From: Halorhabdus tiamatea SARL4B
GTDB lineage: Archaea; Halobacteriota; Halobacteria; Halobacteriales; Haloarculaceae
Length of the DNA: 64,000 bases
NCBI RefSeq assembly: GCF_000470655.1
Contig: NC_021921.1
Location: 310,001-374,000 of the forward strand
Reading direction: 5' to 3'
Positions 22,957 through 27,702 of this stretch are shown here, in pieces; positions within the stretch are counted from its first letter, which is position 1; each line of letters starts with the position of its first letter. The notes under the pieces were generated by a model that had not been told where the DNA came from, did not search any database, and saw only the letters and a list, made by a program, of their open reading frames with translations. Both the position numbers and the translations under genes were made by a program.

Positions 22957-23040
22957 GCGCGGGTAGCCAAGCCAGGAAAAGGCGTAGCGCTTAGGACGCT
23001 ATCCCGTAGGGGTCCGCCGGTTCAAATCCGGTCCCGCGCA
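22957..23040 (+). tRNA. tRNA-Leu (anticodon UAG)
   Basis: Folds as a class II tRNA: acceptor GCGCGGG (22957-22963) with CCCGCGC (23033-23039) and discriminator A23040; anticodon stem TAGCG/CGCTA with loop CTTAGGA, anticodon UAG reading CUA; a long variable arm (TCCCGTAGGGG); T-arm CCGG-TTCAAAT-CCGG. CCA is not encoded. No intron is seen. The TTTGATATCC region about 20 bases upstream could be its promoter. Its 3' tail is repeated downstream. Confidence 0.95.
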
Positions 23041-23325
23041 TTTTGCGGCGAACAACTCGTGAGCCGCACATGCCGCACGAGGATTTGAACGTCGTCACGA
23101 GCGAAGCGAAGTGTCGGAAGTTCACAATCCGGTCCCGCGCATTGCTGTCGCTCGCAAACTCGCGAGTGACTGCAATCACCATGAGGATTTCAACGAGAGA
23201 AGACGCGCGCAGCGAAGCGAGCACGTCTTCGCGTAGTTCACAATCCGGTCCCATGCACTTCTCCGCGAACAAACCTGGGCCGCAAATCCGGCCACTCGTG
23301 CGACAGGGCTGCGAGTGGCGTCGAT
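23041..23325 (+). repeat. Tail-echo region behind tRNA-Leu
   Basis: This 285-bp gap holds two copies of the tRNA 3' tail with one inserted C: GTTCACAATCCGGTCCCGCG plus CA (23120-23141), and a diverged copy ending CCCATGCA (23236-23257). Each is preceded by the reverse complement of the T-loop region: GGATTTGAAC (23081-23090) and GGATTTCAAC (23185-23194). The first spacer contains GCGGC/GCCGC and GCGAACAACTCGTGAGC. No protein frame is credible. Confidence 0.8.
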
Positions 23326-27501: not shown

Positions 27502-27629
27502 AAAAAACGGGCGCGAAGGGATTTGAACTACGCGAACACGGTCGCCTCGTTTCACTCGGCGCTGCGTGTTCTCTACTTCAAATCCCTTCGATACCGCTGA
27601 CAGTGCTCACTGTCGTTCGCACAGAACAG
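27502..27629 (-). repeat. Tail-echo region behind tRNA-Arg, ending in a T6 tract
   Basis: Read on the minus strand from the tRNA 3' end: a 39-base spacer containing GCGAACGACAGTGAGC and a GACAGT/ACTGTC hairpin; then CGAAGGGATTTGAA (27590-27577), the inverted T-arm; a 48-base spacer; then a perfect 21-base copy of the tRNA tail (27528-27508); then TTTTTT (27507-27502). The inverted and direct pieces can pair over 14 bases, making a hairpin plus T-run that could terminate the tRNA transcript. Confidence 0.8.
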
Positions 27630-27702
27630 CGGGCGCGAAGGGATTTGAACCCTCGACATCTTGGTCCGGAACCAAGAACTCTGTCCACTGAGCTACGCGC
27701 CC
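27630..27702 (-). tRNA. tRNA-Arg (anticodon CCG)
   Basis: Folds as a 73-nt class I tRNA: acceptor GGGCGCG/CGCGCCC with discriminator G (27630), D-arm GCTC...GAGT-like, anticodon stem CTTGG/CCAAG with loop TTCCGGA (anticodon CCG, reads CGG), T-arm AGGG-TTCAAAT-CCCT. CCA is not encoded and no intron is visible. Its 3' tail is echoed downstream. Confidence 0.95.

Follow-up and report, generated by a model that had tools for sequence, protein, structure and literature searches.

Integron attC cores have the consensus RYYYAAC..GTTRRRY. In integron arrays each unit is bounded by a folded site that runs from an inverted core through an unpaired asymmetric spacer, a stem with unpaired bases, a variable tip and a second spacer to a direct core, and the unpaired central spacer, extra-helical bases and variable terminal structure of attC sites have been described (PMC2727003). 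New units adjoin the fixed end of the array (attI), units are gained and lost in modular fashion, and the cassettes carry genes. Archaeal integrons have been reported in MAGs of nine phyla (PMC9668308), in a text that has no mention of Halobacteri-. Other archaeal elements target tRNA genes. Integrative elements of the SSV, pT26-2 and SNJ2/pleolipovirus types insert near the 3' end of the gene, supply an end and leave the old one at their far boundary; their length is in the kilobase range, and they carry a gene for a tyrosine integrase. In archaea, tRNA tails often serve as att sites (PMC8371274); proviruses are known from haloarchaea (PMC7911831), and the conventional proviruses at tRNA ends restore the gene by the same principle. 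The haloarchaeal MITE-like PATEs and the SMRs of Haloquadratum (PMC3119063) are short, palindromic, protein-less and repeated in the genome, and they have not been described as specific to gene ends or as bearing gene ends that match the host.

Anatomy of the tRNA-Arg(CCG) and tRNA-Leu(TAG) loci

The window, that is, the whole stretch of 64,000 nucleotides of Halorhabdus tiamatea DNA that was analyzed, contains a tRNA-Arg(CCG) gene followed by a copy (echo) of its own 3' tail. The initial annotation had given the layout as tail, 39 nt, a 14-nt inverted T-arm, 48 nt, a 21-nt copy and T6; this was exact to the base, with all lengths right.

27630-27702, minus strand: tRNA-Arg(CCG), the target gene (direct reading and ARAGORN, whose tRNA ends may be in error by one base)
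27650-27630, minus strand: 21-nt tail gttcaaatcccttcgcgcccg of tRNA-Arg(CCG), from the GTTC core to the discriminator (direct reading)
27591-27629, minus strand: H1 segment of the unit (39-nt spacer), with a T-rich start and a hairpin with the GCGAAC/GTGAGC motif; type A
27577-27590, minus strand: inverted T-arm (inverted core) cgaagggatttgaa, 14 nt, complementary to the echo
27529-27576, minus strand: H2 structured hairpin (AACACGCAG...CGACCGTGTT), 48-nt spacer, covarying across haloarchaea
27508-27528, minus strand: perfect 21-nt tail echo (direct reading)
27502-27507, minus strand: T6 run (TTTTTT) behind the echo, a terminator-like flank (direct reading)

A match to the R1 covariance model described below covers window positions 27517-27587, and the type A H1 is also present at tRNA-Arg(CCG) in three relatives (G001, G002 and G003). 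By extension from aspS, considered below, the tRNA-Arg(CCG) echo would be a displaced former gene end. At tRNA-Leu(TAG), where one echo had been annotated, the echo architecture was confirmed and the locus turned out to be richer, with two tandem units.

22957-23040, plus strand: tRNA-Leu(TAG), the second target gene of the window (ARAGORN and direct reading)
23041-23141, plus strand: unit 1, with H1 (23041-23078), inverted T-arm (23079-23090), hairpin and tail echo (23120-23141)
23142-23257, plus strand: unit 2, with H1, inverted T-arm (23183-23194), hairpin and tail echo (23236-23257)

Unit 2 contains an R1 match at window positions 23183-23248. The common anatomy of a unit is a T-rich start, hairpin H1, the inverted T-arm, hairpin H2 and the tail copy, and arrays take the form (tail-H1-inverted core-H2)n-tail.

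Compared with integron arrays, the haloarchaeal unit site follows the folded attC plan, a resemblance of plan only; proximal addition of new units and modular gain and loss are also shared. The family was not filed as an integron because its cores differ (GAAC..GTTC inside gene ends, not RYYYAAC..GTTRRRY), because the units carry no gene, and because no integron integrase (TIGR02249) scored above the curated cutoff in any of 59 genomes of the order, in which only general tyrosine-recombinase similarity was seen. The fixed end is the gene's own 3' end instead of attI. The unit family may work like an integron. As with tRNA-targeting integrative elements, the end of the target gene is duplicated and the gene is intact; unlike those elements and the large, integrase-encoding proviruses, the units are 100 to 160 bp long, which leaves no room for an integrase, are protein-less, share a conserved inverted-core hairpin and stack in tandem.

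Distribution, structure and turnover of the units

The genome comprises 3,146,160 bp in two contigs, one of them 2,815,791 bp. All 42 tRNAs found by Rfam were surveyed over 400 nt on each side, with thresholds of at least 18/22 for the tail and at least 11/14 for the inverted T-arm. A copy of the gene's own tail was found downstream of 21 of the 42 tRNAs and upstream of none, so the echo is not due to chance, and inverted T-arms numbered 25 downstream versus 2 upstream. The echo layout, claimed at two tRNAs with the proposal that all tRNA downstream regions be aligned, is thus real and extends to half of the tRNAs. The R1 covariance model, built from a 14-sequence alignment whose consensus fold shows compensatory changes, matched 31 places in this genome. 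Two orphan units, L097 and L003 (the latter found by similarity search), were dropped as tRNA-less candidates after their tail sequences led to tRNA-Met, 62 kb away, and tRNA-Arg(TCG), 45 kb away, respectively; integrated DNA likely separates them from these genes. The stretches concerned lie outside the window (G000:C2:1745651-1807657 for tRNA-Met and 48852-94671 for tRNA-Arg(TCG)), and integrase genes are present at 1798-1802 kb in the first.

Across 97 echo-bearing tRNAs, with 1 kb searched at each, unit length was 87 to 264 nt, mostly 100 to 165, and many loci held two to five units. R1 matches, whose E values are rough, were found in 56 of 57 genomes and all 22 genera of the GTDB family and in 102 of 117 genomes and 41 of 48 genera of the order Halobacteriales, counts that are not independent, as the compared sequences are related to each other. 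Outside the order, the remaining genomes of the phylum gave one weak match (E about 0.001). An exact pattern for one H2 subtype matched 36 loci in 84,980 bacterial and archaeal species, all with haloarchaeal names; the genera include Natronorubrum, Natrinema, Haloarcula, Natronococcus, Halosimplex and Halovivax.

Copies stood directly behind a tRNA on the same strand in 122 of 124 cases, in 18 of 20 of a mid-score sample and for 34 of 38 pattern matches, which is not the dispersed placement of MITE- or PATE-type repeats. The exceptions that were read were the apparently displaced tails (L097 and L003), two loci that resemble them (L206 and L217), two matches at aspS and a dispersed repeat in one genus. 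This last repeat (L167-L169, L191 and L192; genus g25) is about 380 bp long, carries the same H2 hairpin away from tRNAs and ends in ...GGGGCTTTGGTGGTGGTCACCGCGCCAGC; given its existence, a link between the units and PATE/SMR-type repeats is possible. Another repeat, CCACCTTTTTACTTCGTCGGG...CTCGCAAAAACTTGGG... and then a hairpin-rich stretch, follows the last echo in many arrays (L022, L029, L040, L050 and L172-L174) and is also found behind tRNAs that have no unit (L015, L051 and L067).

Known families were also considered. No Rfam family accounted for the units: six unit-bearing loci returned only tRNA matches, and three more loci returned none at E values up to 0.5. Phage records gave no meaningful match to a unit, and viral contigs contained neither a unit hairpin nor a relative of the L159 integrase (see below), their three aspS-tail pattern matches being chance matches in unrelated sequence; a phage or viral origin was rejected on these searches. 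A box C/D, H/ACA or kink-turn guide RNA aimed at the T-loop was also set aside, the boxes required of it not being seen by eye. A text search of open-licence papers found the units nowhere described.

The hairpin is supported by covariation. Among 104 distinct homologues, all 13 pairs showed double changes and 95% of cells paired, compared with 25 to 50% in slid controls; the observed covariation was reached by none of 500 shuffles, in a test that leans towards structure since the alignment was fitted to the model. G.U pairs on the sense strand outnumbered A.C mismatches by 96 to 26 in the stems, where one column supplies 43 of the G.U cells, and by 61 to 20 in the foot. One strand therefore seems to be favored, whether as RNA or as folded single-stranded DNA. 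In 86 scored units the spacers were asymmetric, and the conserved stem had an internal loop and a variable tip. Inverted cores were mostly TGAAC/TGAGC and direct cores GTTCA/GTTCG, with GTTCCCGCGAG in aspS. The tips of H1 and H2 were repeatedly GCGAAC/GTGAGC or GAGCGAAGCGAG; in such tips a GAA triloop would be flanked by tandem G.A pairs.

Echoes are matched to the host tRNA, as the initial annotation had held: the agreement was 18.4/20 with the gene's own tail and 12.9/20 with those of other isoacceptors. With the alignment anchored on the T-loop alone, identity was at least 81% through the acceptor strand and discriminator and was at background immediately beyond the gene end. The unit bodies behaved differently. 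A body's closest relative from another genome stood behind a tRNA with the same anticodon in no more than 26% of cases, compared with 5% by chance, and bodies are therefore common to different tRNAs. At the syntenic tRNA-Arg(TCT), where the upstream 900 nt are 76 to 79% identical, G004 has an empty site with TCCACCTTTTTA directly after the tail, while in G000 and G002 units that differ from each other, about 175 bp and about 104 bp long respectively, stand ahead of that flank. Their echoes share a T-loop change. In G001 the H1 is that of G000 and the H2 is of the G002 type. At tRNA-Arg(CCG), G000 has unit A, G006 has B, G005 has C-B and G003 has C-B-A, with the gene-proximal unit named first. 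In 58 multi-unit tRNA arrays the proximal echo was nearer than the distal one to the current tail in 34 and farther in 5, at a relaxed threshold of 14/20 that may let in chance distal matches. Units at L163, L164 and L165 were perfectly duplicated in tandem, and tail, echo and inverted T-arm had changed together in G002. H1 as part of a fixed target-site duplication was considered and dropped, as it was seen in only a few arrays (L127, L163, L117 and L110).

At L159 (G123:C1:3343800-3349500), a 3-kb integrative element lies between two near-identical copies of tail and unit behind tRNA-Gly(TCC) and encodes a tyrosine integrase (PF00589), a DUF7342 protein and one further ORF; integrative elements can thus carry a unit along. 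The inverted-core/H2 signature was absent at the att core of this element and of the 62-kb element at tRNA-Met, the two examined.

Echoes behind aspS

Two of the matches away from tRNAs stood directly after aspS, in Halopiger and Natribaculum. The 3' ends of aspS were compared at 33 loci: those of this genome, of Halopiger and of Natribaculum, and those of 30 genomes of the order. At 15 of the 33 loci the last 11 aspS codons were repeated downstream at full length, in one to three copies, and at 18 they were not. The order within a unit is gene end, inverted core (such as GAGCGGGAAC), hairpin and direct core (GTTCCCGCGAG...stop), and the hairpins GTCACGAG..GAAGTGAC are common to aspS units and a tRNA-Leu unit. 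An explanation confined to tRNAs, in which the echo is kept by tRNA function, was ruled out, since aspS shows the same arrangement. A second class of aspS echo (L244-L271) starts only at GATCG.. (DRQRLSP-stop), has a different inverted core, GAAGACGTTGAGAG, and is sometimes nested in the first class.

The aspS echoes encode FPRDRQRLSP-stop with different codons. Of 105 changed codons, 91 (87%) were synonymous, compared with a random expectation of 21% and at most 36% in 2000 simulations, and a serine TCN/AGY switch occurred in 11 of 20 comparisons. The flank of the last echo was clearly above background against the flank of another species' native aspS end at 6 of 15 occupied loci, although the matched flank can itself be part of an older unit; the aligned examples (G115 versus G108 and G029 versus G044) match through the gene end too. 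Synonymous echoes and the match to native ends of other species indicate that the aspS echoes are displaced gene ends that were once functional, and not copies of the resident end that have decayed. tRNA tails are too conserved to show displacement alone, and tRNAs by themselves cannot separate displacement from copying. Because anatomy and hairpins are shared, the tRNA echoes should be read like those of aspS, and they would have arisen in the same way.

Probable insertion, alternative readings and implications

We consider it probable, from the sequence comparisons above, that the tail-echo belongs to a family of integrative units, spread across the haloarchaea, that are about 100 to 160 bp long, encode no protein and replace gene ends. 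A unit would insert at the GTTC core near the 3' end of the target gene (the tRNA T-loop, or ..GTTCCCGCGAG.. in aspS) and restore that gene with a fresh core-to-end segment; the old end, displaced downstream, would become the echo. Arrays would be produced by repeated insertion next to the gene and by recombination between tails, with the newest unit adjoining the gene. The comparative evidence supports insertion near the gene end with replacement of that end, addition of units on the proximal side, exchange of modules and array growth that is in part due to tandem duplication. Entry would be by site-specific recombination at GTTC, through the folded structure of inverted core, hairpin and core, and by analogy with the integron integrase on attC the enzyme would most likely be a tyrosine recombinase to which the folded site is presented in trans. 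Several points count against insertion: no recombinase was identified, no circular or free form was seen, the conventional integrative elements examined at these tRNAs (L159 and tRNA-Met) have no inverted-core/H2 signature at the att core, a circle of about 130 bp would be very small, arrays have in some cases grown by plain tandem duplication (L163-L165), and the sense-strand G.U excess could also mean selection on RNA. Of the origins and roles first suggested for the echo, an unknown mobile element that targets tRNAs has the best support. The initial annotation had placed an integrated-element boundary outside its own account, and this comes close to the answer, the echo being probably the distal boundary of a very small unit.

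The other suggested roles, a transcription terminator derived from the tRNA tail and a decoy for 3' processing enzymes, would explain neither aspS, in which the echoes are the last codons and stop, nor turnover, and many tRNAs as well as syntenic relatives have no unit. A broader version, in which the units are functional RNA trailers that act in termination, RNase Z processing or alternative-pairing regulation in the pre-tRNA, is unlikely. In such a trailer the inverted T-arm would pair either with the echo or with the T-arm of the tRNA itself, and the 5' acceptor strand with either tail; the strong covariation, the sense-strand G.U excess, the T6 run and a minimum-energy precursor fold that uses the acceptor strand of the echo agree with it. 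So does the T-rich start after each tail (T content, 0.34 to 0.36 versus 0.17), but the same start is found behind echo-less tRNAs (0.38). Moreover, half of the tRNAs have no unit, orthologous tRNAs are empty or have different units, and the same units stand at aspS, where the echoes are coding.

An origin of the echoes from ordinary proviruses or plasmids that had integrated with the tail as att site and later suffered internal deletion appears quite improbable. The frequent use of tRNA tails as att sites, the integrated DNA that in this genome lies between tRNA-Met or tRNA-Arg(TCG) and the respective unit, and the integrase element between tail-unit copies at L159 are in keeping with such an origin, yet deletions that occurred independently would not have left one and the same covarying hairpin behind scores of tRNAs across 41 genera, the two integrated elements examined have no such hairpin at their own att cores, and the phage records and viral contigs hold no relatives of it. 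A process with no insertion at all, in which tandem duplication copies tails and spacers, gene conversion in polyploid cells keeps them alike and template switching corrects the hairpins, is very improbable. It would account for the perfect duplications at L163 to L165 and for the concerted change in G002, and it may explain array expansion; however, bodies are common to unrelated genes, and since the aspS echoes differ by many synonymous changes and serine TCN/AGY switches, they are not copies of the resident end.

Should insertion of protein-less units be correct, an attC-like architecture would be added that has no integron integrase. More tentatively, the analogy suggests that haloarchaea could have an integron-like system of their own, in which a resident recombinase stacks gene-less cassettes by means of folded inverted-core hairpins and keeps exchanging ends of essential genes, those of tRNAs and aminoacyl-tRNA synthetases, between species. 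Genomic-island finders that use tRNA fragments as boundaries would be confused by such units, and a ready assay would be at hand, since several haloarchaea are amenable to genetic work. Essential genes (tRNAs and aspS) would have had their endings replaced horizontally without loss of function, and roughly half of this genome's tRNA genes, together with many in most haloarchaea, would record the repeated insertion of exceptionally small integrative units.
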